Program-made: the position numbers and the translations under genes
In this document: positions 10,289 to 48,047 of the stretch, in pieces
How the letters are laid out: every line of letters starts with the position of its first letter
Position numbering within the stretch: position 1 is the first letter of the stretch
Notes under the pieces: model-generated
Told to the model about the DNA's origin: nothing
The model's input: only the letters and a program-made list of their open reading frames with translations
Databases searched by the model: none
Origin: Pseudomonas mendocina
Lineage (GTDB): Bacteria > Pseudomonadota > Gammaproteobacteria > Pseudomonadales > Pseudomonadaceae
Assembly: GCA_037482215.1 (NCBI GenBank)
Contig: CP148074.1
Coordinates: 2,914,001 to 2,978,000 of the forward strand
Length of the DNA: 64,000 nt
Direction of reading: 5' to 3'

Positions 10289-11050
10289 TCAATGAATAAT
10301 CTGGCTGAGGAATAAGCGGGTACGTTCGTTATGCGGATTTGTAAAAAAAGCATCCGGCTCGTTCTGTTCAACAATTTCCCCGCGATCCATAAATATCACC
10401 CGATTAGCCACGGTACGGGCGAAGCCCATTTCGTGGGTCACGCACAGCATGGTCATGCCGTCTTGCGCTAACCCGATCATGGTATCCAGCACTTCCTTGA
10501 CCATTTCAGGATCAAGGGCTGATGTTGGCTCATCAAACAGCATGATTTTCGGGCGCATGCACAACGCCCTGGCAATCGCTACCCGTTGCTGCTGCCCACC
10601 CGATAACTGCCCCGGAAACTTATGCGCTTGCTCAGGGATTCGCACCCGCTCCAAATAATGCATGGCAATCTCTTCAGCCTTGCGCTTGGGCATCTTGCGT
10701 ACCCACATCGGGGCTAGGGTACAGTTCTGCAATACGCTCAGATGAGGGAACAGATTGAAATGCTGAAAGACCATACCGACTTCACTGCGTATGGTTTCAA
10801 TGTCTTTGAGATCACAGCTCAGCTCGGTGCCATCCACCACAATCCGCCCCTGCTGATGTTCCTCCAGCCGGTTGATGCAACGAATGGTTGTGGACTTACC
10901 GGAGCCGGAAGGCCCACATATGACAATACGCTCCCCCGGCTGGACATCCAGACTGATGTCCTTAAGCACGTGAAACTGCCCATACCACTTGTTGACGCCC
11001 TGTAACTGAATGATCGGCCCTGCGTTTACCTGTTTGTTGGCTTCACTCAT
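10289..11050 (-). CDS. aapP: Amino-acid ABC transporter ATP-binding protein AapP
   Basis: 253 residues. Walker A GPSGSGKST (about 46-54), Q-loop, signature LSGGQQQ (about 147), Walker B IMLFDEPTSALDPE and the H-loop CVTHEMGFA are all intact. The sequence is of the GlnQ/AapP polar amino-acid class. It is the last gene of aapJQMP, 11 bp after aapM. It powers import through the AapQ-AapM pore. Confidence 0.93.
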   Translation of the reverse strand: MSEANKQVNAGPIIQLQGVNKWYGQFHVLKDISLDVQPGERIVICGPSGSGKSTTIRCINRLEEHQQGRIVVDGTELSCDLKDIETIRSEVGMVFQHFNLFPHLSVLQNCTLAPMWVRKMPKRKAEEIAMHYLERVRIPEQAHKFPGQLSGGQQQRVAIARALCMRPKIMLFDEPTSALDPEMVKEVLDTMIGLAQDGMTMLCVTHEMGFARTVANRVIFMDRGEIVEQNEPDAFFTNPHNERTRLFLSQIIH

Positions 11051-11061
11051 TGACCTGACTC

Positions 11062-12159
11062 CTAACGTTTGTGGCCGGTATCCAGCTTGCGCTCCAAGTG
11101 CAGGGAGTAGCGGGACATGCCGAAGCAGAAAATCCAGAAAATCAGCGCAGCAAACACATAGCCCTCAGTGGCCATGCCCAACCAGGCAGGATCAGTGGTG
11201 GCTTGCTTAATGCTGTTAAGCAGGTCGAACAGACCGATGATGATCACCAAACTGGTGTCTTTGAACAGCGCAATAAAGGTGTTAACGATGCCCGGAATGA
11301 CCAGTTTCAGAGCCTGCGGCAAAATCACCAACACCATCATCCGCCAGTAGCCCAAGCCCATCGCCGCAGCCGCCTCGTACTGGCCTTTGGGGATTGCTTG
11401 CAGGCCACCACGCACCACCTCGGCGATGTAGGCCGACTGGAACATGATCACCCCAATCAGCGCCCGCACCAGTTTGTCGAAGCTCATCCCCTCGGGCAGA
11501 AACAGCGGCAGCATCACCGACGACATAAACAACACGGTTATCAGGGGCACACCACGCCAGAACTCGATAAACGTCACGCAAATAACCCGGATCGCTGGCA
11601 TGTCCGAGCGCCTTCCCAGCGCCAGCAGGATCCCCAGAGGTAGAGCCCCAGCGATGCCCACAGCGGCGATCACCAACGTCAGCATCAAGCCGCCCCACTG
11701 GCTGGTTGGCACCACCGAAAGACCAGCAAAACCGCCATGCAGCAGCCAGTAAGCCAGCAGCGGATATACCAGTAAAAAGCCGATGGCATATTTAAGCCGC
11801 TGCGGCATCGCAGGGATAAATAAAGGCGCAGCCCCGATAATCGCCAGCCACAGCGTCAGATCGACCCGCCAGCGTAGCTCTTGCGGGTAAAAGCCATACA
11901 TGAACTGGCCAAAGCGCTGCTGCACAAAGACCCAGCAAGCCCCACCGCTGGTGCAGTCGGCTTTACTGGTGCCATGCCAGTCAGCATCAATAAAGGCCCA
12001 CTGAATCAATGGCGGAATCAACAGCCACAGCAGATACACAGCAAACAGGGTTAGCAACGTGTTGAACCAGCCTGAAAACAGATTCCCGCGTAGCCAAGCC
12101 AGTACACCGACACTCATGGCAGGTGGCGGCAGATCCGGTTTGAATTGATGAGTCTGCAT
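11062..12159 (-). CDS. aapM: Amino-acid ABC transporter permease AapM
   Basis: 365 residues, polar amino-acid permease (HisMQ type). About eight membrane segments are visible. An extended N-terminal half (LLTLFAVYLLWLLIPPLIQW) is typical of AapM and longer than HisM. The EAA loop is present (GQYEAAAAMGLGYWRMMVLVILPQAL). It lies 8 bp after aapQ and 11 bp before aapP. With AapQ it forms the broad-specificity L-amino-acid channel in the inner membrane. Confidence 0.92.
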   Translation of the reverse strand: MQTHQFKPDLPPPAMSVGVLAWLRGNLFSGWFNTLLTLFAVYLLWLLIPPLIQWAFIDADWHGTSKADCTSGGACWVFVQQRFGQFMYGFYPQELRWRVDLTLWLAIIGAAPLFIPAMPQRLKYAIGFLLVYPLLAYWLLHGGFAGLSVVPTSQWGGLMLTLVIAAVGIAGALPLGILLALGRRSDMPAIRVICVTFIEFWRGVPLITVLFMSSVMLPLFLPEGMSFDKLVRALIGVIMFQSAYIAEVVRGGLQAIPKGQYEAAAAMGLGYWRMMVLVILPQALKLVIPGIVNTFIALFKDTSLVIIIGLFDLLNSIKQATTDPAWLGMATEGYVFAALIFWIFCFGMSRYSLHLERKLDTGHKR

Positions 12160-12167
12160 ACCACCCC

Positions 12168-13352
12168 CTATCGCTCAATCAGCGCCATGCGCCGGTTGTA
12201 CCCATTCATCAACAGGGAAATGCTGATGCTGATAGCCAGGTACACGCTCATGGTGATGGCAATGACCTCAATTGCCTGTCCGGTCTGGTTCAGCACCGTA
12301 CCGGCAAACAGCGAGACCATGTCTGGATAGCCGATACCGGCTGCCAACGAGGAGTTTTTCACCAGATTGAGGTACTGGCTGGTCAGTGGCGGAATAATCA
12401 CCCGCATGGCTTGGGGAATAATCACCAGCCGCAGGGTTTTCGCTGGCGGCAAGCCCAAAGAAAGAGCCGCCTCGGTCTGGCCCTGGCTAACGGCTTTGAT
12501 ACCCGAGCGCACGTTCTCCGCAATAAAAGCGGCGGTATACACCGTTAGCGCCAAGGTCAGCGCCAATAGCTCTGGGATAAACACCCAACCGCCGCGAAAG
12601 TTAAAACCAGCCAGCTCCGGCACACTCCAGCTAACCGGGCTACCTGTCAGCAGAACAGTCAGCCCTGGCAAGCCCACCAGCAACACCAGCCATCCCAGCG
12701 CTACCGGGAACGTCTGGCCGGTTTGCTCAAAATGCTTGCGACTCCAACGCAGCAGCCACAGCCCCCCGACAACCGCCAGAATCAACGCGACGAAAAATAC
12801 TGAGCCCCCCTGCGCGACAATCGGAGCAGGCAGATACAGGCCACGACTATTAAGAAAGAAGCTGTCAGCCACATTCAAACTCTGGCGCGGCCCAGGCAAC
12901 GCCAGCATTACCGCGAAGTACCAGAAGAATATCTGCAGCAGCGGCGGGATATTGCGGAAAATTTCTATATAGACAGCGGCCAGCCTGCTCACCAGCCAAT
13001 TAGGCGAAAGCCGGGCCACGCCAATAACAAAGCCCAACAGCGTTGCCAGTACGATACCGATTACCGACACCAGCAACGTATTGAGCAGACCGACCCAAAA
13101 CACACGGCCGTAGGTATTGCTTTCCTGATACGGGATCAGGTGCTGGGCAATACCAAACCCCGCGCTGTTATCCAGGAAAGCAAATCCCGACGTGATTCCA
13201 CGCTTGGCCAAATTCGCCTGCGTGTTCTCAAACAAAAACCAACCCAGCGCAACAACCGCCACCACCGCAATAATCTGAAATGCCCAGGCCCGCAGCACTG
13301 GATCAGTCCAGAAAGAACCTCGTGGACGCGGGACCTCTGCTCGTATATGCAT
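12168..13352 (-). CDS. aapQ: Amino-acid ABC transporter permease AapQ
   Basis: 394 residues from the ATG at 13352, which has GAGG upstream (MHIRAEVPRPRG). The open frame continues 50 codons further upstream with Cys-rich, non-homologous sequence across the aapJ-aapQ gap, so the earlier GTG is rejected. Many membrane segments and the EAA loop (GQTEAALSLGLPPAKTLRLVIIPQAM) identify a HisMQ-type permease with the long N-terminal extension of the Aap subfamily. Confidence 0.9.
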   Translation of the reverse strand: MHIRAEVPRPRGSFWTDPVLRAWAFQIIAVVAVVALGWFLFENTQANLAKRGITSGFAFLDNSAGFGIAQHLIPYQESNTYGRVFWVGLLNTLLVSVIGIVLATLLGFVIGVARLSPNWLVSRLAAVYIEIFRNIPPLLQIFFWYFAVMLALPGPRQSLNVADSFFLNSRGLYLPAPIVAQGGSVFFVALILAVVGGLWLLRWSRKHFEQTGQTFPVALGWLVLLVGLPGLTVLLTGSPVSWSVPELAGFNFRGGWVFIPELLALTLALTVYTAAFIAENVRSGIKAVSQGQTEAALSLGLPPAKTLRLVIIPQAMRVIIPPLTSQYLNLVKNSSLAAGIGYPDMVSLFAGTVLNQTGQAIEVIAITMSVYLAISISISLLMNGYNRRMALIER

Positions 13353-35975: not shown

Positions 35976-36081
35976 TTAATCCGAAGATTTTTAATCGCCC
36001 TGATTGAAAAAATCTTTTTTACCCACTCATCTTTTGTCGCTATAAGGTCGGCAAATGGCCTGACAGCCTGGAGTGAGACAG

Positions 36082-36261
36082 ATGACCACGGATAAAGAAG
36101 ACCTCGAATTAGACGAAGACTTTGTTTCAGATGACGCCGATGAGGCGGATGCGCCAATTGAGGTTGCTAAAACCAACCTGACCAAACGCCGCATCATCGA
36201 CAACTTCCTTGAAGAGCGTCGCCTCAATAAACAATTAGCCGAATACGATTTCGATATCTGA
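36082..36261 (+). CDS. Small acidic PA3496-type protein
   Basis: 59 residues from ATG 36082 behind GGAG. A GTG three codons earlier would lie on the Shine-Dalgarno and is rejected. Very acidic N-terminal half (DKEDLELDEDFVSDDADEADAP), then a basic amphipathic helix (TKRRIIDNFLEERRLNKQLAEYDFDI). Homologous in look to the small Pseudomonas protein named for PA3496, called a putative envelope integrity protein; no mechanism is known to me. Sits downstream of nth with its own terminator. Confidence 0.85.
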   Translation: MTTDKEDLELDEDFVSDDADEADAPIEVAKTNLTKRRIIDNFLEERRLNKQLAEYDFDI

Positions 36262-36268
36262 TTGGCAC

Positions 36269-36295
36269 AAAGCCCCGCTTAAAAGCGGGGCTTTT
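36269..36295. terminator. Bidirectional terminator before merR-like gene
   Basis: AAAGCCCCGC / GCGGGGCTTT with a 6-base loop; convergent genes on either side. Confidence 0.9.
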
Positions 36296-36308
36296 GTTGT
36301 GTGGCGCA

Positions 36309-37268
36309 TTAGGTATCCAAACGCCCTTCTATGAGTTGTCTCAAGCGGTCACGCATAAGGCCGGTATGAGCACCCAGGTTGGCTATTGGGCTGCCTTGCA
36401 GCTGTGCCTCTGCCAATTCTGCTCCCAGCCCTGCCAAGGCCATCGGGCAGTCCACAGACAAAGCCAGTTTAAAGAGCTGACGTAACTGCACCTGTGTGGG
36501 TGGCATGGCAGCCAGTACCACCAGCGCTCGCGGCTGGATGGACTGGCAGATCACCGGCACCTCTTCCAGCGGCTGGCCCACCGGCAGAATCCTCAGGCGC
36601 GACGTGTCGCCGCTCACGAGCAAGCCACTGACCAATAATTCGAGTTCACGGTGCTGGTCGGGGATGCCAACAAACAATACGTCCCCTTGGGCATCACGCT
36701 TAAGCATCTGCATACGTTGCAACACTCTGCTGCGCAGGAATGCATCGTAGAACAGCCATTGGCTTAGCTGGCCAAAACCGGCGTCATTGATCCCCTGACG
36801 CCATACGGGAAGCAGAATCTCCTCGAAGGCCATCTGCAGCGGGAAGGTGGCAAATATCTGGCCGTACAGCTGTTCCAGGCGCTCTTCATCAAATGCTTGC
36901 AGAGCTTGGCAGATACGCGTTTGCCACTCCGCCTGCTGTGATTCTCCTGACGCTGCAGGCTCTGCTTGGGTAAACGATGCAGAGGCAGCCTCTTCTCGTC
37001 TACGGGCAAGCAGGTTACCCACCTTACTCACTGCCAGCCCACGTTCTGTCCAAGCCATGATGTCGCGAATCGTCGCGATATCTTCCAGCGTATACAGCCG
37101 GTGCCCGCCTTCAGTGCGGTACGGTCGGATCAATCCGTAACGGCGCTCCCAAGCTCGCAGCGTGACCGGGTTGACACCTGTCTGGCGTACAACCTCACGG
37201 ATGGGAAGCAGCTCGTCACTCACTGGATGCTCAGCAACGCTCACCGAAGCCTCTACTCTTTCAGTCAT
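36309..37268 (-). CDS. MerR-family regulator, LitR/CarH-like (first copy)
   Basis: 319 residues from ATG 37268; a longer frame with 25 more codons runs into the promoter region and is rejected. The N-terminal MerR winged helix is EVVRQTGVNPVTLRAWERRYGL, GGHRLYTLEDIATIRDIMAW. The C-terminal half resembles the B12-binding region of CarH/LitR in its four-helix and Rossmann-like pattern (FLRSRVLQRMQ, VLFVGIPDQHRELELLVSGLL), but the cobalamin DxHxxG signature is absent. It therefore fits the class II LitR proteins that respond to light through a LOV partner. It is divergent from the LOV gene, and TGTACA words lie between them. Confidence 0.85.
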   Translation of the reverse strand: MTERVEASVSVAEHPVSDELLPIREVVRQTGVNPVTLRAWERRYGLIRPYRTEGGHRLYTLEDIATIRDIMAWTERGLAVSKVGNLLARRREEAASASFTQAEPAASGESQQAEWQTRICQALQAFDEERLEQLYGQIFATFPLQMAFEEILLPVWRQGINDAGFGQLSQWLFYDAFLRSRVLQRMQMLKRDAQGDVLFVGIPDQHRELELLVSGLLVSGDTSRLRILPVGQPLEEVPVICQSIQPRALVVLAAMPPTQVQLRQLFKLALSVDCPMALAGLGAELAEAQLQGSPIANLGAHTGLMRDRLRQLIEGRLDT

Positions 37269-37302
37269 AGAAAAGTTAGCCGCAGCTAATAACTGCTGGC
37301 AT

Positions 37303-37378
37303 TGTACAGCGGTCAACGGCACTGGACGTTTACAAGAGTGCAATCTGTACGAAATCGCAGGATATACTCTGCGCCCTC
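37303..37378. promoter_or_regulatory. Divergent promoter region with TGTACA-type operators (merR / LOV)
   Basis: TGTACA at 37303-37308, TTTACA at 37329-37334 and TGTACG at 37346-37351. On the minus strand TTGACC (37316-37311) with a 17-base spacer that contains TGTACA leads to AGTTAT as a merR promoter. On the plus strand TATACT (37373-37378) fits a -10 for the LOV gene with TGTACG near -35. Operators inside spacers are typical for MerR-family control. Confidence 0.55.
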
Positions 37379-37453
37379 ACCGTTCATAGACGTAGCCTGG
37401 ATCGCTTCGCGCAGCCACGCTCACCCGATCACGGTTCTACGAAGGATAAAAGA

Positions 37454-37915
37454 ATGATCAACGCCAAACTGCTGCAACTGGTAGTAGAAGCCTCTAACGA
37501 TGGCATCGTAGTAGCCGAGCAAGAGGGCGACGACAACATCCTGATCTATGCCAACCCGGCGTTTCAGCGCCTGACTGGCTATAACGTTGACGACATTCTG
37601 TATCAGGACTGCCGCTTCTTGCAGGGGAGTGACCGGGACCAACAAGGCCTCAACGTCATTCGTGAAGCGGTTCGCCACAACAAGCCATGCCGGCAGATCA
37701 TTCGTAACTACCGGCAGGACGGCAGTGCCTTCTGGAATGAACTGTCCATCACTCCAGTTTTTAATGAAGCAGACCAACTGACCTACTTCATCGGCATCCA
37801 GAAAGATGTCAGCGACACCGTGCAGGCCTTAGAACGAGTGCGCGAGCTTGAGGCCGAAGTCGCTGCACTAAAGGCTCAGTTGGCAAGCGTGCAAGACAGC
37901 TCGAAAACAAACTGA
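37454..37915 (+). CDS. Short LOV-domain blue-light photoreceptor
   Basis: 153 residues. One LOV domain and a C-terminal helix that can dimerise (ALERVRELEAEVAALKAQL). Photoactive Cys53 lies in YQDCRFLQG; the usual Asn before Cys is Asp, exactly as I remember for the P. putida short LOV protein PpSB1-LOV, to which the whole sequence is very close. FMN contacts NxxxxN-like ANPAFQRLTGY and QIIRNYRQDGSAFWNELSI, FIGIQKDVS are kept. There is no effector domain, so it must signal by protein contact. The adjacent LitR-like repressors are the best candidates. Confidence 0.95.
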   Translation: MINAKLLQLVVEASNDGIVVAEQEGDDNILIYANPAFQRLTGYNVDDILYQDCRFLQGSDRDQQGLNVIREAVRHNKPCRQIIRNYRQDGSAFWNELSITPVFNEADQLTYFIGIQKDVSDTVQALERVRELEAEVAALKAQLASVQDSSKTN

Positions 37916-38170
37916 GCGTTGCCCGCCGTTAAACCTGCCCCTTATCGTCTCCCCTCCCCCCGCGCCTATGTGAAGCCCTTCAATAGGCGCCCCAAATATC
38001 ACTCAAAGCCGATCCCGTAGTGCCCTTATCAGGTATCGGCTATCGCGTGCCCGCGCCCAAAAACCTATACAAAACTAATTTTATTTGTACACATATATTG
38101 ACTTGTACAATTTATTCCTTAACCTCTTAACCTGTACAAGAAAATTTAAATGTACAAGAAAGAGGGATAC
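37916..38170 (+). promoter_or_regulatory. Light-cluster promoter region with TGTACA operators
   Basis: 255 bp, AT-rich over its last 110 bp. TGTACA occurs at 38086, 38104, 38133 and 38151, with spacings 18, 29 and 18. TATACA lies at 38066. A TTGACT -35-like element (38098-38103) directly abuts the second TGTACA. This looks like the operator/promoter of the DUF523-photolyase-lipid operon. The left part (37916-38060) shows nothing recognisable. Confidence 0.6.
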
Positions 38171-39130
38171 ATGAACGTTCTCAATGGCTCGATCAAAATT
38201 GGCATCAGTGCCTGCCTGCTAGGCCAGCCCGTGCGTTTCAATGGCGGCCACAAAGCCTCGCAGCTGTGCCAGGACGTTCTATCGCACTACTTCGATTTTG
38301 TTCCTGTTTGCCCTGAGCAAGCCATCGGCCTGACAACACCGCGTCAACCTATACGCCTGGTTAGCCACCCAGAAGGTCCGCGCGCCGTTGGAACTGTCGA
38401 CCCGAACCTGGATGTCAGTGATGCACTGACTCAAGTGGGCCAGCACGCAGCTGAAAACCTGGGAGGAATCTGCGGCTACATCTTGATGCAGAAGTCCCCG
38501 TCGTGCGGCATGGAACGGGTGAAGGTCTACCAAGACAACGGCCAACCCAGCGACTCAACAGGACGCGGGCTGTTTGCAGCGGCGCTGATGCGAGCCTGCC
38601 CGGACCTTCCCGTTGAGGAAGACGGCCGCCTGAACGACCCAGTGCTGCGAGAAAACTTCATTACCCGCGTGTTCGTTTATGCCGAATGGCAAAACCTCAT
38701 GAATCAAGGCCTGACCCGCCAAGGCCTGATCCGTTTCCATGAACGTTACAAGTACCTGCTTATGGCGACTGCCAGAAAGCAGTACAAACAACTCGGGCAA
38801 TTGGTTGCCCAATGCGGCAACACGGACCTGCACAGCTTGGCGCCCCAGTACTTCAGCCAATTGATGGCTGCCCTCAAACAGCCCGCTAACCGAGGCACCC
38901 ACACCAATGTCCTCCAGCATTTGTCGGGCTATCTGAAGCACGCCATCAGCTCCGATGACAAGCGCGAGTTGCATGAGCTGATTCTGCAATACCGCAACGG
39001 CATCGTGCCGCTGATCTCGCCTCTGACGCTGCTGCGCCATCACTTCCGCCACCACCCCGACGCTTACATTGCTCGCCAGGCATACCTGCAACCACACCCA
39101 GATGCACTGGGGCTGCGTAACGCGCTATGA
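38171..39130 (+). CDS. DUF523-DUF1722 protein (YbgA-like)
   Basis: 319 residues from ATG 38171, which has AGAGGG five bases upstream; an in-frame ATG at 38150 sits inside a TGTACA operator and lacks a ribosome site. The N-terminal DUF523 domain has GISACLLGQPVRFNGGHK and MQKSPSCGMERV (conserved Cys residues that could bind metal or a cluster). The C-terminal DUF1722 domain has RFHERYKYLLMATARKQYKQLG and HVLQHLSGY-like NVLQHLSGYLK. Proteins of this fusion are often next to photolyase genes, here two genes away. Biochemical role unknown. First gene of the light operon; overlaps the next by 4 bases. Confidence 0.88.
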   Translation: MNVLNGSIKIGISACLLGQPVRFNGGHKASQLCQDVLSHYFDFVPVCPEQAIGLTTPRQPIRLVSHPEGPRAVGTVDPNLDVSDALTQVGQHAAENLGGICGYILMQKSPSCGMERVKVYQDNGQPSDSTGRGLFAAALMRACPDLPVEEDGRLNDPVLRENFITRVFVYAEWQNLMNQGLTRQGLIRFHERYKYLLMATARKQYKQLGQLVAQCGNTDLHSLAPQYFSQLMAALKQPANRGTHTNVLQHLSGYLKHAISSDDKRELHELILQYRNGIVPLISPLTLLRHHFRHHPDAYIARQAYLQPHPDALGLRNAL

Positions 39131-40038
39131 GCACTGATGATCGTCGTGTGGATGCCGTACAAGCGGATACAGACCTTGTGCCGATCCGTGAGGTGGCTCG
39201 CTTAACCGGAGTCAACCCAGTCACGCTGCGTGCGTGGGAGCGCCGCTATGGATTGATCCGCCCACACCGGACCGGCAAAGGCCACCGCCTGTATAACCAG
39301 CACCATATTGAGCAAATCCAACAGGTACTGGCTTGGCTCGCCCGTGGTGTGGCCGTCAGCCAAGTCAGAGGCTTACTTGAACACCCACTGCCCGCGTCTG
39401 TTGCTGGCGATGCCTGGAATGAAGAAAGACGCCTTTGGCTGAATTGCATCGAGCAACTGGCTGAACGTTCTCTGGATGACAGCTTCAACCGCTCACTGGC
39501 GCTCTATCCCGCTGAAACAATGTGCCTGCACCTGTTGTTACCGCTTCTCGATGAGCTGCAACAGCGCTGGAGTTTATTAGCCAGCGAGCAGCTGGAACGC
39601 GTGTTTTTTCTCTCGTGGCTACGCAGCAAGCTCGAAACACGCATCTACCACGGCAATTGCCTGCACAGTGGCCCTCCGCTGCTGCTGTTGAGCCTGTCCA
39701 ACCAGCCAATGCAACCCACCCTGTGGCTGTGCGCCTGGCTGGCCAGCACCAGCGGAAGTCCAGTGCGTGTATTCGACCAGCCTATTTCGCCCGCCGAGAT
39801 CAGCCGCGCAATCAGCCTGATAGCACCCCGTGCGGTGCTGTTTCACAGCGACCACTGCGTGGCGCCCGCTTATTTACGCCTGGTGGCAAACACCCACGCC
39901 CACCCACAAATGCTCTGTGGAATGGCCGCAACCATCCACAACGAGGCGCTGAGCGGCTGCCCGCATCTGCACCTTGCCGAATCCCCCCTGAACGCCCTGC
40001 ACTGCCTGCAGCGCCTCGGCCTCATTACGCATTGTTAG
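39127..40038 (+). CDS. MerR-family regulator, LitR-like (second copy)
   Basis: 303 residues, ATGA overlap with the DUF523 gene. The MerR DNA-binding head (EVARLTGVNPVTLRAWERRYGLIRPHR, GHRLYNQHHIEQIQQVLAWL) is almost identical to that of the first copy, so both should bind the same TGTACA-type operators. The C-terminal half is diverged and lacks the B12-binding signature. Being inside the operon it may control gives a feedback loop. The equivalent P. putida proteins are class II LitR homologues working with a LOV protein. Confidence 0.87.
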   Translation: MSTDDRRVDAVQADTDLVPIREVARLTGVNPVTLRAWERRYGLIRPHRTGKGHRLYNQHHIEQIQQVLAWLARGVAVSQVRGLLEHPLPASVAGDAWNEERRLWLNCIEQLAERSLDDSFNRSLALYPAETMCLHLLLPLLDELQQRWSLLASEQLERVFFLSWLRSKLETRIYHGNCLHSGPPLLLLSLSNQPMQPTLWLCAWLASTSGSPVRVFDQPISPAEISRAISLIAPRAVLFHSDHCVAPAYLRLVANTHAHPQMLCGMAATIHNEALSGCPHLHLAESPLNALHCLQRLGLITHC

Positions 40039-40049
40039 GGAGACTGCCC

Positions 40050-41489
40050 ATGCGCCAACTGATGTGGTTTCGCAGCGACCTGCGTACTCAAGACAACACT
40101 GCTTTAAACGCGGCCATGCAAAACGGCCCGACCCTGGCGGTGTTTTTCATCACGCCGGGTCAATGGCTGGAACACGATGATGCACCGAGCAAAGTCGACT
40201 TCTGGTTACGTAACTTACATAGCCTGCAAGCGCAATTGAAATCACTCAACGTACCGCTGCTGATACGCCATGTAGCGTTCTGGCGTGATGTACCTGAAGA
40301 GATGGCAAAACTGTGCCAGGAGCACACCATCTGTGCCGTACACAGCAACGAAGAGTACGGTCTGAATGAAGCTCACCGGGATCAGCAGGTAGCCAATCGC
40401 CTCTCCAAGCTGGGCGTGCAATTCAACGGTTATTTGGACCAATTGCTGTTTCAACCCGGCAGTATCCTCAACCGCAGCGGCAACTATTTTCAGGTTTATA
40501 GTCAGTTCCGTAAGGTCTGCTATCAGCGACTGCACACAGCCATGCCCAGCACACACCCGCTGCCGAAAGCTCAAGCCAACCTTGGGATTGAAAGCGATAA
40601 GGTTCCAACTGAAGTTGCTGGTTTCGACAAACCCACCGACGCTCTGCAAAAGCTCTGGCCGGCTGGGGAAATCAAAGCCCATCTGCGCCTGCAGCGTTTT
40701 GCGGATGAGTACATGGAGGATTACGACCTTCAGCGCGACCTGCCCGCCATACCGGGCACCAGCCAGCTTTCGCCCTACCTGGCAGCCGGGGTGCTTTCGC
40801 CAAGGCAGTGCCTTGAAGCGGCCTTGATGAGCAACCGTGGCGAGTTTGAAAGCGGCACCCCAGGCGTTGTTACCTGGATCAACGAACTGCTCTGGCGCGA
40901 GTTCTACAAACATATTCTGGTGGGCTTTCCTCAGGTTTCGCGGCACCAGCCCTTTCGCGCGCAGACCAAAACCATCCCATGGCGGCATGCCCCCCAAGAA
41001 CTGCAAGCCTGGAAGGAAGGCCGAACAGGCTTTCCATTGGTTGATGCAGCCATACGCCAACTGCTGGCAACCGGCTGGATGCACAACCGCCTGCGGATGG
41101 TTGTGGCGATGTTTCTGAGCAAGAACCTGTTGATCGACTGGCGCGAGGGCGAGCGCTTTTTCATGGCCCACCTGATTGATGGTGACCTTGCCGCCAACAA
41201 TGGAGGATGGCAGTGGAGCGCATCTACCGGCACGGATGCCGTGCCTTGGTTCCGCCTGTTCAACCCGATCAATCAGTCACGTCGTTTCGATCCGCAGGGG
41301 CGCTTTATCCGGCATTGGCTCCCCGAGCTGGCTGATCTGGATGAAAAATTCATTCATGAGCCGTGGAAAGCAGGCAGTCTTTTTGCGCGGCCAGACTACC
41401 CACAACCCATGATTGACCTTAACCACAGCCGTGATCGGGTCTTGCACACCTTCCGCAGCCTTTCTGTGTTGGAGGGGCATGATGTCTGA
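40050..41489 (+). CDS. phrB: Deoxyribodipyrimidine photolyase
   Basis: 479 residues from ATG 40050 behind GGGAGA; a much longer upstream frame overlaps the regulator gene and is rejected. Class I CPD photolyase: antenna domain (MRQLMWFRSDLRTQDNTAL), then the FAD domain with TSQLSPYLAAGVLSPRQC, ELLWREFYKHIL, Trp triad residues, WKEGRTGFPLVDAAIRQL, TGWMHNRLRMVVAMFLSKNLLIDW and GGWQWSASTGTDA. It repairs UV cyclobutane dimers using blue light. Placement under LitR/LOV control is sensible: repair enzyme made when light is present. Confidence 0.96.
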   Translation: MRQLMWFRSDLRTQDNTALNAAMQNGPTLAVFFITPGQWLEHDDAPSKVDFWLRNLHSLQAQLKSLNVPLLIRHVAFWRDVPEEMAKLCQEHTICAVHSNEEYGLNEAHRDQQVANRLSKLGVQFNGYLDQLLFQPGSILNRSGNYFQVYSQFRKVCYQRLHTAMPSTHPLPKAQANLGIESDKVPTEVAGFDKPTDALQKLWPAGEIKAHLRLQRFADEYMEDYDLQRDLPAIPGTSQLSPYLAAGVLSPRQCLEAALMSNRGEFESGTPGVVTWINELLWREFYKHILVGFPQVSRHQPFRAQTKTIPWRHAPQELQAWKEGRTGFPLVDAAIRQLLATGWMHNRLRMVVAMFLSKNLLIDWREGERFFMAHLIDGDLAANNGGWQWSASTGTDAVPWFRLFNPINQSRRFDPQGRFIRHWLPELADLDEKFIHEPWKAGSLFARPDYPQPMIDLNHSRDRVLHTFRSLSVLEGHDV

Positions 41490-41907
41490 GTTCCTGCACC
41501 GATTCGCCCATAAGTTTGCCAGTCTCACTGCTGACAACCTTGACCATTTAGGTGAGCTGTACAGTCATGATGTGGTGTTTCAGGACCCGTTGCACACCAT
41601 CAAGGGCCTGCCAGCCGTGCAGGACTACTTTGCCAACCTGTACGCCAATGTCAGCGACCTGAAGTTTACGTTTGAGCAACTCGACACCCTTACCTCAGGC
41701 AAGTCGGGCTACCTGCGCTGGACGATGCAATTCCGTCACCCGCGCTTAAATGGCGGCAACCCAGTCATGGTTAAGGGCTGCACCTACTTACGCTGGCACG
41801 AAAAGGTCTATCTGCATCACGACTACTTCGACGCAGGTGCCATGCTTTACGAACACCTCCCTCTCGCCGGCAAGCTAATTCGCTGGCTCAAAGGGAGGCT
41901 GGCATGA
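41482..41907 (+). CDS. NTF2/SnoaL-like protein
   Basis: 141 residues. Two adjacent ATG codons overlap the phrB stop; the second (41482) is better spaced from GGAGGGG. A small cone-shaped NTF2-like fold is indicated (FASLTADNLDHLGELYSHDVVFQDPLHTIKGLPAVQDYFANLY, YLRWTMQF, HHDYFDAGAMLYEHLPLAG). Members can be enzymes or binding proteins. In this operon type it accompanies the dehydrogenase and FAD protein. Function unknown. Overlaps the next gene by 4 bases. Confidence 0.85.
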   Translation: MSEFLHRFAHKFASLTADNLDHLGELYSHDVVFQDPLHTIKGLPAVQDYFANLYANVSDLKFTFEQLDTLTSGKSGYLRWTMQFRHPRLNGGNPVMVKGCTYLRWHEKVYLHHDYFDAGAMLYEHLPLAGKLIRWLKGRLA

Positions 41908-42665
41908 AACGGATCTGGATCACCGGAGCCAGCAGCGGCATCGGCTTAGAGCTGGCACGCCTTCTACTGGAGCAAGGACACGGAGTGGCCGTCAGTGCTC
42001 GAACGGTTGAACCTCTCAACCTTCTTCAGCAGGAGTACCCCAATCAGGTTCTCATTGTTGCGGGTGATCTTGCCGAGGCTGACGAAGTTCAGCGCATGGG
42101 AGAACGCATCAGAGCACTTTGGGGACAGCTCGACCAAGTCATCCTCAACGCTGGGACGTGCGAGTACATCGACGTTAAGCAATTTGAAGCTGCCATGGTT
42201 GAGCGGGTGATGCGCGCCAATCTGCTCTCGGCCGCTCATTGCATCGAAGTCGCGCTGCCACTTTTACGCAATGCCCAGCGCGGACACATAGTCGCCATCA
42301 GCAGCTCGGTTACCTACCTGCCACTGCCCAGAGCTGGCGCCTACGGTGCTTCCAAAGCGGCCATGCGCTATTTGTTCAACTCGCTGCGCATTGATCTGGC
42401 CAGCGCGGGGATTGACGTAACGCTAGTCAGCCCTGGCTTTGTAGACACCCCGCTGACCCGCAAAAACGACTTCCCGATGCCGATGCGTTGGCCTGTAGAA
42501 AAGGCAGCCAGACACATCGTAAAGCGGCTGCCTAAACGCCCCCTGGAAATTGCCTTCCCCACTCCATTTATAGCGGCCTTGCGTCTGCTGGCTCTGCTGC
42601 CACAACGCTTGCAACTCCATCTGGGCAAACAGTTGTCCCGCCCCTCAACGGATAAACAGTCATGA
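41904..42665 (+). CDS. Short-chain dehydrogenase/reductase
   Basis: 253 residues, classical SDR. NAD(P)-binding TGASSGIGLELAR, the NAG motif (ILNAGTCEY), catalytic Ser in AISSSVTYL and the YGASKAA motif (Tyr-x3-Lys) are all present. C-terminal hydrophobic stretch (FIAALRLLALLPQRLQLHLG) may touch the membrane. Substrate not known; context suggests lipid or fatty-acyl chemistry. ATGA overlaps both sides. Confidence 0.9.
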   Translation: MKRIWITGASSGIGLELARLLLEQGHGVAVSARTVEPLNLLQQEYPNQVLIVAGDLAEADEVQRMGERIRALWGQLDQVILNAGTCEYIDVKQFEAAMVERVMRANLLSAAHCIEVALPLLRNAQRGHIVAISSSVTYLPLPRAGAYGASKAAMRYLFNSLRIDLASAGIDVTLVSPGFVDTPLTRKNDFPMPMRWPVEKAARHIVKRLPKRPLEIAFPTPFIAALRLLALLPQRLQLHLGKQLSRPSTDKQS

Positions 42666-43909
42666 AAATTGCCATCATCGGCAGCGGTATTTCTGGCCTG
42701 ACCTGCGCCTACCTGCTCAGCCGCAACCACGAAGTACACGTATTTGAAAGCAACGACTGGATTGGTGGTCACACCCATACCGTGGACGTTGAGGTTGCTG
42801 GCACCCCATATGCCATCGACACCGGCTTTATTGTTTTCAACGATTGGACCTACCCCAACTTTATCCGCTTGCTTCAGCAACTCGGTGTGGCCTCGCAGCC
42901 CACTGAAATGAGCTTTTCCGTCCATGATCCCCGAAGCGGTCTTGAGTACAACGGCAACAACCTGAACAGTTTGTTTGCTCAGCGCCGGAACCTCGTATCA
43001 CCTGGATTCTGGGGCATGCTGTGGGACATCACGCGCTTCAACCGATGCGTACTCGATGATCTGGAAAAGAATCGAATAGACGAAGCGACTACCCTAGGCC
43101 AATACCTCAAAGCCAATGGCTACGGTCAACGCTTTATCGAGCACTACATCGTGCCGATGGGTTCAGCCATATGGTCAATGTCCATGGCTGATATGCAGAA
43201 TTTCCCGCTGCAATTCTTCGTTCGGTTCTGTAAAAACCACGGCCTGTTGTCCGTCAATAACCGCCCTCAATGGCATGTTATTAGCGGCGGCTCACGCAGT
43301 TATATCCCCAAGCTATGCGCAAGCTTTGAGCAGCGCATTCGTCTCAACTGCCCGGTTCACAGCGTATCTCGCAGCGATGATCGCGTCGTGATCAGCAGTG
43401 AATGGGGCGAGGAACAGTTCGATAAAGTGGTCTTCGCCTGCCACAGCGATCAGGCCCTGAGCCTGCTACGAAAGCCCTCGCAAACGGAATGGGAAATTCT
43501 TCGGGCAATCCATTACGCGGATAACGACGTGGTGCTGCATACCGATACCCGCCTGCTCCCCGACCGCAAGTTGGCATGGGCCAGCTGGAACTACCGCCTG
43601 AGCGACTCCGACAGGGTTCCGGCCGCGGTGACCTACAACATGAACATCCTGCAAGGGCTTAAGAGCGACACCACCTTCTGCGTGAGCCTTAATCAGACTC
43701 AGGCCATCGCGCCCAATAAAATTCTTCAGCGTTTCCAGTACGCACACCCTCAATACAGCCTGACAGCGGTCGCCGCGCAGAGTCGCTGGGCTGAGTTACA
43801 AGGTCAACAAAACAGCTATTTCTGCGGTGCTTACTGGGCCAATGGCTTCCATGAAGATGGCGTGGTCAGTGCGTTGCGCGTTGCAGCGCAATTCGGAGAG
43901 CACCTGTGA
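42662..43909 (+). CDS. FAD-dependent amine-oxidase-like protein (lipid-modifying cluster)
   Basis: 415 residues. N-terminal dinucleotide fold IIGSGISGLTCAYLLSR, then FESNDWIGGHTHTVDVEV, GFIVFNDWTYPNF, PMGSAIWSMSMADM and a C-terminal FAD-contact (YFCGAYWANGFHEDGVVSALRVA). The family is linked with CFA-synthase-like and DUF1365 genes in many bacteria, and a related flavoprotein acts in furan-fatty-acid synthesis in alphaproteobacteria. Desaturation or oxidation of a phospholipid acyl chain is a reasonable guess, not shown by sequence. Confidence 0.88.
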   Translation: MKIAIIGSGISGLTCAYLLSRNHEVHVFESNDWIGGHTHTVDVEVAGTPYAIDTGFIVFNDWTYPNFIRLLQQLGVASQPTEMSFSVHDPRSGLEYNGNNLNSLFAQRRNLVSPGFWGMLWDITRFNRCVLDDLEKNRIDEATTLGQYLKANGYGQRFIEHYIVPMGSAIWSMSMADMQNFPLQFFVRFCKNHGLLSVNNRPQWHVISGGSRSYIPKLCASFEQRIRLNCPVHSVSRSDDRVVISSEWGEEQFDKVVFACHSDQALSLLRKPSQTEWEILRAIHYADNDVVLHTDTRLLPDRKLAWASWNYRLSDSDRVPAAVTYNMNILQGLKSDTTFCVSLNQTQAIAPNKILQRFQYAHPQYSLTAVAAQSRWAELQGQQNSYFCGAYWANGFHEDGVVSALRVAAQFGEHL

Positions 43910-44697
43910 ACAGCGCGCTGTATAGCGGCTGGGTAGGCCACCAGCGCCTACACCCGCGCGCCCACGGGTTCCGTTATCGAATCGGCATGCTCTACCTGGA
44001 CCTAGCCGAACAGGCTGACGTTCTAGAGCTGTCAGCACTGGCTGGCTCATCGCGCTGGGCACCCTTTTCTTTCAGAGAGACTGACTACCTGCCGCACCTG
44101 ACTGAGCTGGGTATCCCCCTCATCGAGGCCGTCCGCCAATGCCTCAGCGAAGCGTTGCCCTCGCCCCCTAATGGGCGAGTCTGCCTGCTGACTCAGCCCC
44201 GCAGCTGGGGCCTGTCATTCAATCCAGTGAGCATTTTTTACTGCTTTGATGAAGCCGGACAACTCGCCGCCATGCTCTGCGAGGTCAGCAATACACCGTG
44301 GCACGAGCGTTATCACTACGTGTTGCCTGCCCATGCCGAGGGTGAGTCACGCCACCGGGTTCAAAAGAGTTTTCACGTCTCGCCGTTTATGCCGCTGGAT
44401 CTGGAATACCGCATGCGCTTCAGCCAGCCCGATCAGCAATTGCACATCACCATGCAGGATTGGCAAGGCCCACAAAAAGTCTTTGAAGCAGGCATGAGCC
44501 TTAAGCGCACCGAGCTAAGCCGCCACAGCCTGCACCGGCATCTACTGGCCTTCCCCTGGATGACTGGCAAAACCCTTCTCGCCATTTATTGGCAAGCCTT
44601 GCGCCTGTTGCTTAAGCGCACCCCTGTTTTTAATCACCAAGCCGCCGACGGGCATTTCCGTACCGCCACTCTGGAGTCTCGCCATGAACAACCCTAG
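43906..44697 (+). CDS. DUF1365 protein
   Basis: 263 residues, GTG start overlapping the previous stop (GTGA). Typical start (LYSGWVGHQRLHPRAHGFRYRIGMLYLDL), RSWGLSFNPVSIFYCFDEAG, EVSNTPWHERYHYVLP, KSFHVSPFMPLDLEYRM. No catalytic motif known. Nearly always found between a FAD-dependent oxidoreductase and a CFA-synthase-like gene, as here, so it probably works on the same lipid. Overlaps the next gene by 14 bases. Confidence 0.88.
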   Translation: MNSALYSGWVGHQRLHPRAHGFRYRIGMLYLDLAEQADVLELSALAGSSRWAPFSFRETDYLPHLTELGIPLIEAVRQCLSEALPSPPNGRVCLLTQPRSWGLSFNPVSIFYCFDEAGQLAAMLCEVSNTPWHERYHYVLPAHAEGESRHRVQKSFHVSPFMPLDLEYRMRFSQPDQQLHITMQDWQGPQKVFEAGMSLKRTELSRHSLHRHLLAFPWMTGKTLLAIYWQALRLLLKRTPVFNHQAADGHFRTATLESRHEQP

Positions 44698-45952
44698 CTT
44701 GAACCCTGCGGCCACCAGCAGTGCCAGCTCTGCCACTTTCAGCACCCGCCTGCTGAGGCAACTTGTACTGCGCCAGCTCAGCGCACTGCGCCACGGTCAC
44801 CTGCTGATCCATTCGGAAGGCGAAACCCTGAGCTTCGGTGACAAGGCCTCTGCACTACAGGCTGAATTGAGCGTGCAGCACAGTGCGTTCTGGTCGATGG
44901 TGGCCAGTAATGGCTCCATCGGTGCAGGTGAAGCCTACGTACAGGGCTATTGGACCAGCCCTGATCTGACCATGGTCATCCGCTTGTTTGCAGCCAATCT
45001 TGATCTGTTGGATACCGTCGAAAATGGCCTAGCCCGCCTTCGGCGCCCGCTGGTCAAAGCCCTGCACTGGCTCAACCGCAACACCCGAGACGGATCACGG
45101 CGCAACATATCCGCCCATTACGACTTGGGTAATGCCCTCTTCGAGCAGTTGCTGGACCCGACCATGATGTACTCCTCTGCCATCTTCCGCAGTGAAGACG
45201 ACACGCTGGAGCAGGGGCAACTGAACAAGCTTGAGCGCATCTGCCAAAAGCTGGAGCTCAAACCCACTGACCACCTGCTGGAGATTGGCACCGGCTGGGG
45301 CAGCATGGCGCTGTATGCCGCTACGCACTATGGCTGCAAGGTGACCACAACCACCCTATCCCGTGAACAGTACGCCTACACCCAGAAGCGCATCAAGGAA
45401 CAGGGCCTGCAAGATCGCATCACCTTGTTGTTGGAGGATTACCGCGACCTTAAAGGCCAATACGACAAACTCGTCTCCATTGAAATGATTGAGGCTGTCG
45501 GCCACCGTTATCTGCCCGTGTACTTCAAGCAGTGCAGCCATTTGCTTAAAGACGGCGGCCTCATGCTGCTTCAAGCCATTACCATCCGTGATCAGCGCTA
45601 TGAGCAGGCCAAGAGCTCCGTCGACTTTATTCAACGCCATATCTTCCCCGGAGGAGCATTGCCTTCGGTAACCGCCATGCTCAACTGCATCAATACCCAG
45701 ACAGATATGAACCTGCACCACATGGAGGATTTTGGCCTGCACTACGCGCGGACCCTTCGCTTCTGGCACGAGAACCTACGCCGCAGCCGCAACACGCTAG
45801 AAGGCCTCGGCTATGACGAAACCTTCTACCGTTTGTGGGAGTTTTACTTCTGCTACTGCGAAGGCGGCTTCCTGGAGCGCAGTATTGGCACAGCCCACCT
45901 CTTATTGGCCAAACCTGAAGCGCGCCCGCAACCGTTCGGAATTAGTGCGTGA
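44684..45952 (+). CDS. Cyclopropane-fatty-acyl-phospholipid synthase-like methyltransferase
   Basis: 422 residues. N-terminal lipid-binding domain (LLRQLVLRQLSALRHGHLLIHSEGETLSFG) and the SAM domain with HYDLGNALFEQLLDPTMMYSSAIF, motif I LLEIGTGWGSMALYAA, TTTTLSREQYAYTQKRI, EDYRDLKGQYDKLVSIEMIEAVGHRYLPVYF. It methylates unsaturated acyl chains of membrane phospholipids, giving a cyclopropane or, in UfaM-type enzymes, a methylated precursor of furan fatty acids. Which product applies cannot be decided by eye. The context with photolyase and LOV points to protection against light-made oxidants. Confidence 0.9.
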   Translation: MNNPSLNPAATSSASSATFSTRLLRQLVLRQLSALRHGHLLIHSEGETLSFGDKASALQAELSVQHSAFWSMVASNGSIGAGEAYVQGYWTSPDLTMVIRLFAANLDLLDTVENGLARLRRPLVKALHWLNRNTRDGSRRNISAHYDLGNALFEQLLDPTMMYSSAIFRSEDDTLEQGQLNKLERICQKLELKPTDHLLEIGTGWGSMALYAATHYGCKVTTTTLSREQYAYTQKRIKEQGLQDRITLLLEDYRDLKGQYDKLVSIEMIEAVGHRYLPVYFKQCSHLLKDGGLMLLQAITIRDQRYEQAKSSVDFIQRHIFPGGALPSVTAMLNCINTQTDMNLHHMEDFGLHYARTLRFWHENLRRSRNTLEGLGYDETFYRLWEFYFCYCEGGFLERSIGTAHLLLAKPEARPQPFGISA

Positions 45953-46452
45953 GCCTGCGCAAACGCCTACTGCTCAATGCCGGGCTGTTCCAGCTCGGCT
46001 GGTTGGCCTGTGTATTTGGCGCCAGCAATCCTGCGTGGCTGGCGGTGGCCGCAGTGTGTCTGGGTGCTCACTTGGGATGGGTTGCCGATGACCGACGTGC
46101 AGAGTGTTTTGTGATTTTGCGCGTAGCAGCAGCCGGTTGGATTGTGGACAGCGCGCTGATGCATACAGGACTGTTCGACTTCGGCACTACGCTAATCCTG
46201 CCCGCCTGGCTGATGTTGCTCTGGCTGTTATTCGCCAGCACGCTTCGCTACAGCCTGGCTTGGTCAGCCCGGCCTATGTGGCTGAGCTGTTTACTGGGCG
46301 CCTGTTGCGGCCCATTGTCTTACTTAGCCGGGGCTCGATTGGCTGACGTTGGACTGCCCCTCGGTGAACCGCTGAGTCTGGCTCTGTTGGCGCTTATTTG
46401 GGCGGTTCTGCTGCCAGCCTTGCACAGATTGGCTGGCAGCCACCAACGCTGA
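45949..46452 (+). CDS. DUF2878 membrane protein
   Basis: 167 residues, GTG start overlapping the methyltransferase stop. Five or so membrane segments (LLLNAGLFQLGWLACVFG, LAVAAVCLGAHLGWVA, LILPAWLMLLWLLFASTL, LALLALIWAVLLPALH). DUF2878 has no known function; it is a constant partner of these light/lipid clusters in Pseudomonas. Last gene of the operon. Confidence 0.85.
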   Translation: MSLRKRLLLNAGLFQLGWLACVFGASNPAWLAVAAVCLGAHLGWVADDRRAECFVILRVAAAGWIVDSALMHTGLFDFGTTLILPAWLMLLWLLFASTLRYSLAWSARPMWLSCLLGACCGPLSYLAGARLADVGLPLGEPLSLALLALIWAVLLPALHRLAGSHQR

Positions 46453-46454
46453 TC

Positions 46455-46506
46455 TAGGTTCTGTACGAGAAGTCTCCGAGCACAGGCACTTTCCGTACAG
46501 AACCTA
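46455..46506. terminator. Perfect inverted repeat between convergent DUF2878 and DUF3833 genes
   Basis: 13-bp arms TAGGTTCTGTACG / CGTACAGAACCTA around a 26-base loop. The right arm includes the DUF3833 stop codon. No T-tract, so it acts as a structured end or an operator-like palindrome. Confidence 0.55.
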
Positions 46507-47028
46507 AGACTTCTTACGGAAAAACAAAGTGACTTGCCCCACCTCAATCCCGAACTTACTCATGAAGGAACGGTTGACCATGGTGTTTTCGTCCAGCAGG
46601 TACATCCAGTCATCCAGAAATACCTCATACACCTGATCATCCACCGGCAAACTCAGCACGTAGCGCCAACGTAGGGCATTGCCAGCAACCTCGCCCTCAG
46701 CCTCACCGACCACATCCGCAGCAGTTCCGCGCCACTCCCCGGGAGCAGTCGCTGATAAGGTCCAGACACGCTTCTGCCGGGTGCCATCACTGTAAGAGAA
46801 CGACTCGTCGAGAATCAGATCATCCCCTTGAGCGTAGCCCTTTATGTCCACATGAAAGCGTTTGACCACCTCGCCTGAACGCTTTTGGAACATCCCCCAG
46901 GCCTCCACCTCACCGGTGAAAAATGCCCGCAGATCAAGTTTCGGCTCCTCATCCTTGTAGGTGTGTACATCCACCTGCGTGCAACTGCTCAACAGCACAC
47001 ACAACGACAACATCAGGACTCTGAACAT
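46504..47028 (-). CDS. DUF3833 lipoprotein
   Basis: 174 residues from ATG 47028 (GAGGAG upstream). Signal peptide with lipobox LLSSC (Cys16). Mature part DLRAFFTGEVEAWGMFQKRSGEVVKRF, GYAQGDDLILDESFSYSDGTRQKRVW, VFLDDWMYLLDENTMVNRSFMSKFGIEVG fits DUF3833, a lipocalin-like beta-barrel guess. Second gene of the pair with the chalcone-isomerase-like gene; likely binds or handles lipids in the periplasm. Confidence 0.86.
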   Translation of the reverse strand: MFRVLMLSLCVLLSSCTQVDVHTYKDEEPKLDLRAFFTGEVEAWGMFQKRSGEVVKRFHVDIKGYAQGDDLILDESFSYSDGTRQKRVWTLSATAPGEWRGTAADVVGEAEGEVAGNALRWRYVLSLPVDDQVYEVFLDDWMYLLDENTMVNRSFMSKFGIEVGQVTLFFRKKS

Positions 47029-47043
47029 GGTTACTCCTCGCAA

Positions 47044-47598
47044 TCAGGGTTCTATAGCACCAATGAGCCGGGCCCGTAGCTCAGGTGTGCGAGTCTGCGC
47101 GTCCAGCCAAATTGAAAAGAAAGCACGGGCGAACGCTTGGTCGCTCACCCCATGCCTGAAGGCGTCACCTGCATAGAAACGCGCGCCTCTGCCGGGCAGA
47201 AAAACCCCCGTGATGCGCTCGCCCTCTGCGACATCGACAAACGCCTGCTGCATCTCAAGCGCCCAGCGGTCCAACTGCGCGGGATCGACCACAGATCCTT
47301 GAATACGGCGAATTTCCTTAATGCTGGTTGCGACCAAATCATCTGCGCTGATTGATCGGCTGTAGGTGAGTTGCAGGGCAAAAGGCTCCTGAAACGACAG
47401 CAGCGAATCAGCGCTACCAGCATCGCTCCACAGCTCCGCCTTATAGATGGAGAAGCCAAACATACGCAGCTCGCCCGAGCCAATCAGGCGCGAGTCCGGA
47501 ATGGCCTCCCGCCAGCTAGCTTGGGCCTGCGTGCAGATCAGCAGCGTGGCCAACAGCATCTGAAGTAAGCAAGAAATGCGAGGCATAGGCGTGTCCAT
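47044..47598 (-). CDS. Chalcone-isomerase-like periplasmic protein
   Basis: 184 residues from ATG 47598; an upstream GTG (47616) and an internal ATG (47586) are alternatives, and no start has a clear Shine-Dalgarno. Signal peptide (LLQMLLATLLICTQAQAS). The mature domain SGELRMFGFSIYKAELWSDAG, PFALQLTYSRSISADDLVATSIKEIRR, FLPGRGARFYAG looks like the Chalcone_3 fold, which in bacteria binds fatty acids and need not be an isomerase. It is preceded by TGTACA/TATACA operator words and begins the second light-cluster transcript. Confidence 0.83.
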   Translation of the reverse strand: MDTPMPRISCLLQMLLATLLICTQAQASWREAIPDSRLIGSGELRMFGFSIYKAELWSDAGSADSLLSFQEPFALQLTYSRSISADDLVATSIKEIRRIQGSVVDPAQLDRWALEMQQAFVDVAEGERITGVFLPGRGARFYAGDAFRHGVSDQAFARAFFSIWLDAQTRTPELRARLIGAIEP

Positions 47599-47625
47599 TG
47601 CAGATGGATGTGACACACCTAAATC

Positions 47626-47665
47626 TATACATAAATTATTATTTGTACAGATTTATGCATTTCAA
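47626..47665 (-). promoter_or_regulatory. Promoter with TGTACA/TATACA words upstream of the chalcone-isomerase-like gene
   Basis: Minus strand: TTGAAA (47665-47660), 17-base spacer, ATAATA (47642-47637). TGTACA (47644-47649) lies in the spacer and TATACA (47626-47631) just past the -10, 18 bp apart, the same spacing as in two pairs before the DUF523 gene. Confidence 0.55.
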
Positions 47666-47943
47666 TCTGTATCAGCGTGCCTGTCGCTCAGAACATTTCT
47701 TCGAAACGCTGAGTTCAATGAAAGCCCAGCAAAACCTTGCTCTCGCAGGCTGCGGGGCTGCTCACAGGCCACCAGCCTGTGCATACCAGCAGGCAATTCT
47801 TTAGTCTTTTGTGACCACAGATCCAGGGACGGGAAAGGGATCTGCAAGGTATCCCTGTATACAAGCGGATGGGCCAAGATCCTATGATAGGCGAGGTAAT
47901 CCTCGGGCTCGCTGTGACGGATTTTCACTGTGCTCATGTCCAT
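47662..47943 (-). pseudogene. Truncated GNAT acetyltransferase relic
   Basis: From ATG 47943 the frame reads MDMSTVKIRHSEPEDYLAYH, then PLVYRDTLQIPFPSLDLWSQKTKELPAGMHRLVAC, which is the N-terminal third of a GNAT acetyltransferase. After about residue 56 homology stops (EQPRSLREQGFAG...), and the acetyl-CoA motif A (R/QxxGxG/A) is missing. The stop falls in the promoter of the chalcone-isomerase-like gene. A deletion that brought that promoter next to the fragment is likely. Confidence 0.7.
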
Positions 47944-48047
47944 ACCCTTATGGACCAACGACCAACCAGCTAACGCTAACTTAACTGCTTTTGAAAAAGC
48001 GTTTTGCAGAGGCAGGTCACCAGCGGCCGGCCTCTGCACACTGCGCC

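Follow-up and report, generated by a model that had tools for sequence, protein, structure and literature searches.

The closest described light switch is that of Pseudomonas mendocina. According to Maruyama et al. 2022 (PMC9758184), the lit short LOV protein of this species binds a LitR repressor, which frees a light operon of nine genes. In the promoter P6650, the motif TGTACA-N12-TGTACA occurs twice, over the -35 hexamer TTGACT and again between the start site and the ATG, and lov and pmlR2 are described in the same paper as nearly constant. Pseudomonas putida KT2440 has three PplR regulators and two LOV proteins, and its RudS protein (RudS_KT) is PP_0741 (via PMC9758184, PMC8508746, PMC11417400). 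RudS is a fusion of TudS with DUF1722, and its light-operon context was noted by the authors who described it (PMC11417400). Here we analyse a 64,000-nucleotide stretch of P. mendocina (GCA_037482215.1, contig CP148074.1, positions 2,914,001 to 2,978,000), called the window below, which belongs to a single-contig genome of 4.76 Mb. Positions 36309-47598 of the window hold thirteen genes, which form, in all probability, a blue-light photoprotection regulon.

We compared the cluster with these systems. The PmlR2/PmSB-LOV pair and the PME6650-PME6610 operon of P. mendocina NBRC 14162, as described in PMC9758184, have in common with it a Cys53 short LOV protein and a nearby class II LitR, a nine-gene operon in the same order with pmlR1, phrB, a short-chain dehydrogenase (SDR), a flavin adenine dinucleotide (FAD) enzyme and ufaM, and tandem TGTACA-N12-TGTACA operators in the same layout, the first over TTGACT. 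However, in NBRC 14162 pmlR2-PME15565-lov and the pmlR1 operon lie at separate loci, whereas in the window the two groups lie side by side and litR2 is divergent from lov. The operon as published also does not include the chalcone-isomerase-like/DUF3833 pair that the window has. With the PplR1-3/PpSB-LOV system of P. putida KT2440, as presented in the three sources above, the cluster shares a LOV-dependent LitR regulon with pplR1, phrB and ufaM. In P. putida-group loci (e.g. L198-L201), lov-litR2 stands beside an ntf2-ufa operon, and there is no rudS-litR1-phr in the fetched range. Thus, the LOV-LitR light system is largely known already. What is new here is mainly two extra gene pairs that, judging by their operators, appear to be under the same switch.

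Candidate operators of the cluster

We searched for the published operator consensus T(G/A)TACA-N12-TGTA(C/T)A. The whole genome contains four exact matches. Three of them are in the window, two at the rudS operon and one at 47626-47649, and the fourth is 1.8 Mb distant. With up to two mismatches, the window has 10 sites when 2.49 are expected by shuffling, and none of 100 shuffles reached 10. Counts of the strict form and its reversed control were 78 and 3 when summed over 36 genomes of the genus, and 9 and 0 in a further 21 genomes from the rest of the order.

To see which genes carry the operator, exact sites were counted within 250 bp upstream of each gene in a set of 136 fetched regions, after removal of duplicates by gene sequence. 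It turned out that such a site precedes rudS in 37/47 cases, the chalcone-like gene (chal) in 13/20 and ntf2 in 12/38; in all 12 of these layouts, ntf2 is the first gene of the operon. It was found upstream of lov, litR2 and sdr only once each (1/101, 1/78 and 1/40), and phr, ufaD, ufaO, ufaM and DUF2878 had no exact site in this range. Random windows from the same loci contained one in about 1% (300/27200). These counts make it very likely that the convergent DUF3833/chalcone-like pair is in the regulon for this cluster type, and suggest that lov-litR2 is mostly outside it. Because litR1 lies inside the controlled operon while lov and litR2 rarely have upstream operators, litR1 looks like a feedback repressor. 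The best promoter-like site between 36000 and 48000 is that of the chalcone-like gene (TTGAAA-16-AATAAT, 47665..47638, 10/12), and operator 47626-47649 covers its -10 hexamer; promoter-like sites of that quality are no commoner than in shuffles.

Gene content and predicted products

The thirteen genes are arranged as litR2 on the minus strand, lov on the plus strand, the operon rudS-litR1-phr-ntf2-sdr-ufaD-ufaO-ufaM-DUF2878 on the plus strand, and DUF3833 with the chalcone-like gene in convergent orientation. The first-pass annotation of this DNA had counted twelve. All the genes it named were found, and every gene of the cluster is above the cut-off for at least one Pfam family. Its overlaps of 4 to 14 bases hold for seven junctions of the operon (4, 8, 4, 4, 4, 14 and 4 bases along the run), but litR1 and phr are separated by 11 bases. 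The gap between lov and rudS is 255 bases; therefore, lov is outside the overlapping run. We also chose better start codons from the sequence: ATG 37268 for litR2 instead of TTG 37343, ATG 38171 for rudS, ATG 40050 for phr, ATG 41482 or 41479 for ntf2 and ATG 47598 for the chalcone-like gene. With count, junctions and starts corrected in this way, the cluster is confirmed as real. The same gene order recurs across many Pseudomonadaceae, so that the cluster is more than chance. An 11-pair stem-loop with a T-rich tail, perhaps a terminator, was seen between nth and litR2 (36269-36294).

Table. Genes and candidate operators of the cluster (window positions)
Feature	Position	Strand	Description
litR2	36309..37268	-	class II LitR/CarH-type MerR repressor, 319 amino acids from ATG 37268, divergent from lov
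lov	37454..37915	+	short LOV blue-light receptor, 153 amino acids; PAS_9; PDB 7a6p best match
LitR operator site 1 (candidate)	38086..38109	+	exact TGTACA-N12-TGTACA, spans TTGACT -35-like hexamer
LitR operator site 2 (candidate)	38133..38156	+	exact match, directly ahead of rudS ATG
rudS	38171..39130	+	TudS-DUF1722 fusion; PF04463 + PF08349
litR1	39127..40038	+	second class II LitR-type regulator; MerR_1
phr	40050..41489	+	deoxyribodipyrimidine photolyase; NCBIfam NF007955, 533.7 bits (cut-off 506)
ntf2 (NTF2/SnoaL-like)	41482..41907	+	Pfam SnoaL_2, 6.1e-14
sdr (short-chain dehydrogenase)	41904..42665	+	Pfam adh_short
ufaD-like FAD-dependent oxidoreductase	42662..43909	+	Pfam Amino_oxidase/NAD_binding_8; methyl-acyl desaturase by analogy
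ufaO-like DUF1365 protein	43906..44697	+	Pfam DUF1365, 1.5e-77; furan-forming oxygenase by analogy
ufaM-like S-adenosylmethionine (SAM)-dependent acyl methyltransferase	44684..45952	+	Pfam CMAS family
DUF2878 protein	45949..46452	+	final operon gene; Pfam DUF2878
DUF3833 lipoprotein (predicted)	46504..47028	-	predicted lipocalin/FABP-like beta-barrel
chalcone-isomerase-like protein, probably exported	47044..47598	-	Pfam Chalcone_3
LitR operator of the chalcone-like/DUF3833 pair (candidate)	47626..47649	-	exact match over -10 hexamer

In the LOV protein, the photo-adduct cysteine is Cys53, within DCRFLQ. Only PAS models match over the 153 residues and there is no output domain; the match to 7a6p (E 1.5e-68) covers residues 1-143. 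The MerR helix-turn-helix (HTH) of the LitR type (MerR_1) was matched in both LitR1 and LitR2, which are 31% identical overall and closely similar in the HTH. In the LitR tree, litR1 falls on the 42-row LitR1 side, and the window LitR2 is placed together with P. putida-group loci in a 22-row clade (96/99). The LitR2 of P. mendocina FFL34 is in a separate 43-row clade (96/89). LitR2 aligns with CarH starting at residue 12 and is predicted to keep the entire CarH fold, with its Rossmann-type B12 domain, but lacks the cobalamin-contacting residues. These residues were scored in LitR2 and 39 relatives at the aligned positions of CarH Trp131, His142 and His177, which we take to be the contacts to adenosylcobalamin (AdoCbl). 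The position of Trp131 is an unaligned insertion, that of His142 is Trp in 40/40 sequences, and that of the axial His177 is Arg in 26/40 and His in 6/40. A His at 206, beside the His177-aligned position, is present in 1/40 sequences, the LitR2 of the window. Thus, in the alignment of 40 sequences, LitR2 does not show the AdoCbl-contact residues of class I CarH/LitR.

The PF04463 (TudS) and PF08349 (DUF1722) domains are in one reading frame of the gene following the tandem operators. A motif match, not an alignment, located C15, C47, E49, R58, S109, S111 and C112, which are the seven catalytic and Fe-S residues of RudS_KT at an offset of two; the Cys positions are as in RudS_PU. Having both the fusion and these residues in common with RudS as described in PMC11417400, the DUF523-DUF1722 gene is, by its sequence, RudS, a tRNA 4-thiouridine desulfidase. 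Hence, it cannot be listed among uncharacterised parts, as had been done before; for the NTF2, DUF2878, DUF3833 and chalcone-like genes, which are without proven function, that description stands. The ntf2 gene is the first operon gene in lineages that have rudS-litR1-phr elsewhere.

The FAD, DUF1365 and CMAS proteins match UfaD, UfaO and UfaM of Rhodobacter sphaeroides and Rhodopseudomonas palustris in family and order. As described in PMC7380195, UfaO is a DUF1365 protein; the three genes of the window are likewise contiguous and follow the order of R. palustris RPA2571-2569. The furan genes of R. sphaeroides are under ChrR (PMC7380195), whereas those of the window are presumably under LitR/LOV. 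The ufaM-like protein scores 280.2 bits on the Cfa model NF008686, below the curated cut-off of 400, and a second strong CMAS match (293.7 bits) lies elsewhere in the genome, at 1387566. In the convergent pair, the DUF3833 product is a predicted lipoprotein whose fold, also by prediction, is a lipocalin/FABP-like barrel. The chalcone-like protein has a hydrophobic N-terminal leader, judged by eye in a 15-sequence alignment, and is probably exported.

Arrangement across genomes and a possible link to taxis

In 149 genomes of the genus, LOV (E up to 1e-40) was found in 133, LitR1 (E up to 1e-55) in 144, and both in 130. The two genes are on different contigs in 66 of these 130 genomes and on one contig in 64. 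Among the 64, the window genome alone has lov and litR1 within 25 kb (1.7 kb); therefore, the window brings together what lies apart in most of the sampled genomes of the genus. We also counted layouts by hand in the best 80 of at least 181 named LOV loci, with 10 kb fetched. The rudS gene is within 10 kb of lov in 19/80, including all 11 labelled Stutzerimonas and the one Azotobacter, and the lipid operon follows lov without rudS in 11/80. The thirteen genes stand in identical order in Pseudomonas sp. TTU2014-080ASC (L125), together with both operators and the operator of the pair. In a locus from another family of the order (L115), one 10 kb stretch contains lov, DUF2878, ufaM, ufaO, ufaD, SDR, NTF2, a LitR-like gene and rudS; therefore, the joined layout is not confined to the genus. 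In the alternative layout, divergent litR2/lov and operators are followed by ntf2-sdr-ufaD-ufaO-ufaM-DUF2878 without rudS-litR1-phr (G025 L086, G024 L087, G152 L102, G166 L104, L181, L184, L185, L187, L196-L201). The chalcone-like/DUF3833 pair is convergent or near there, mostly with its own operator.

At L069, L070, L074, L082, L084, L109 and L112, another LitR-like site was seen 1.1-1.4 kb upstream of rudS (L069 13839-15268). It lies between two divergent genes, one of the FAD amine-oxidoreductase family and one for a DUF1731 epimerase, as seen from the domains in L069. In several of these loci, a gene follows that by eye looks like hemH.

The fourth exact operator of the genome lies between two divergently transcribed genes, one for a PAS-PAS-PAS-MCP chemoreceptor and one for an EAL phosphodiesterase (L036 7719-10878, genome about 1127700-1130900). 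This phosphodiesterase is stand-alone and has an N-terminal CxxC. In Stutzerimonas L123, the interval between lov and rudS contains two such genes: PAS-MCP, which has an exact site of its own, and EAL, which shares the promoter region of rudS. L122 is arranged likewise, except that the site has one mismatch and the first gene is only a putative PAS-MCP. In P. flexibilis L127, an EAL match accompanies a PAS-MCP gene that has an exact site. In Pseudomonas L132, one strand carries PAS-MCP, EAL and LOV in this order; L097 resembles it, with other frames in between, and there is no exact site at this place in either locus. Among the 30 best EAL loci, an exact site was found in 2, one of which is the window genome, and this speaks against a link between the switch and cyclic di-GMP (c-di-GMP) or taxis. 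The link is patchily conserved. It is possible, though we hold this only tentatively, that the LOV-LitR switch drives a broader light response of the cell than has been published: besides repair and furan lipids, it would control the envelope pair, which would handle furan or oxidised acyl chains, and the chemoreceptor and EAL genes, with less c-di-GMP and altered taxis in blue light as the result. This is the boldest reading of the data and should be taken as a lead, not a result. As a separate observation, L128, L138 and L151 (~10600-13300; Stutzerimonas, P. songnenensis) have a protein of 886-898 amino acids with a distant EAL match directly after lov.

Proposed mechanism and alternative explanations

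In the dark, LitR2 and LitR1, without cobalamin ligands, would hold the tandem operators of rudS and the operator of the pair. Blue light would form the Cys53-flavin mononucleotide adduct in the short LOV protein. Lit LOV may then bind the HTH part of LitR2, and LitR2 would leave the DNA, as shown for the P. mendocina homologs. Inactivation of a LitR-like repressor by lit LOV, which had been proposed for this cluster, is established for PmlR2/PmSB-LOV in PMC9758184, and the same operators are present here. The published LOV partner is the lov-adjacent regulator, by analogy LitR2; the earlier proposal that LOV acts on both repressors goes beyond this. The operon would then make RudS, clearing from tRNA the 4-thiouridine that crosslinks under ultraviolet A (UVA), together with photolyase and accessory proteins. 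The UfaM-UfaD-UfaO-like enzymes may convert phospholipid acyl chains to methylated furan chains quenching singlet oxygen, and LitR1 made from the same operon would close a negative feedback loop. The convergent pair, already included in the cluster by the first-pass annotation, does seem to belong there in view of its operator, which that annotation had not considered. From that operator, we infer that the pair is induced by the same LOV-LitR switch; in the envelope, its proteins may bind or move acyl chains that have been modified or oxidised.

Several observations weigh against this mechanism. Gel shift gave a complex of lit LOV, LitR and DNA, contrary to simple release; the authors of PMC9758184 favour their BIAcore data. 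The tested P. mendocina pair, judged by FFL34, belongs to the 43-row clade, and the window LitR2 to the 22-row clade. With up to one mismatch, the consensus occurs 18 times genome-wide against 12 in the reversed control, that is, barely above it, and some of the 78 strict sites in the genus are near-identical 24-mers across genomes that resemble conserved coding sequence. Even when one mismatch is allowed, the 250 bp upstream of 7/47 rudS and 7/20 chal genes contain no site. Among the latter, L087 has a site just ahead of the matched part, and L131, L138, L151, L159 and L165 hold the pair in another arrangement near lov. A promoter scan of 36000-48000 missed the rudS promoter, whose -10 is a weak match. 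For UfaD, UfaO and UfaM, the match is one of family and order only.

The last point leaves room for the lipid genes making cyclopropane or plain methyl-branched chains, not furan fatty acids, as part of a general membrane stress response, and the methyltransferase is indeed of the CMAS family with 280 bits on the Cfa model. We consider this unlikely, since the score is below the Cfa cut-off, another strong CMAS match exists in the genome, and the gene adjoins the DUF1365 and FAD enzymes in the order proven in R. palustris. The chal genes lacking a site would also fit a pair that is merely a neighbour outside the light response, all the more as, of the mapped rudS loci, only that of the window has the pair within the fetched range. 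However, one of only four exact operators in the genome is at the promoter of the pair, and the frequency of sites at chal loci far exceeds that in random windows, which makes a mere neighbour improbable. Far less credible still is that the LitR proteins sense light themselves via adenosylcobalamin, like class I CarH/LitR, with LOV as a minor or separate input. The complete CarH fold predicted for LitR2 would allow it, and a one-residue shift to His206 could retain an axial His. But contact residues are missing in the LitR2 alignment, and B12 independence is reported for the P. putida homologs in PMC9758184. Thus, control by the LOV-LitR switch is the reading that we prefer.

The light switch of P. 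mendocina and P. putida occurs here as one compact unit, in which tRNA de-thiolation and lipid photoprotection are tied to light within one operon. The locus is of value because it is compact and full-length, because gene names could be corrected and because it yields three predictions: a light-controlled lipid-handling pair, a class II LitR with the CarH fold and without cobalamin ligands, and a switch that reaches c-di-GMP and taxis in some lineages. If the operator predictions hold, the uncharacterised DUF3833 and chalcone-isomerase-like families would acquire a role in lipid photoprotection that can be tested. If the link to the chemoreceptor and EAL genes is true, the short LOV protein would give a non-photosynthetic bacterium a direct route from light to c-di-GMP and taxis.

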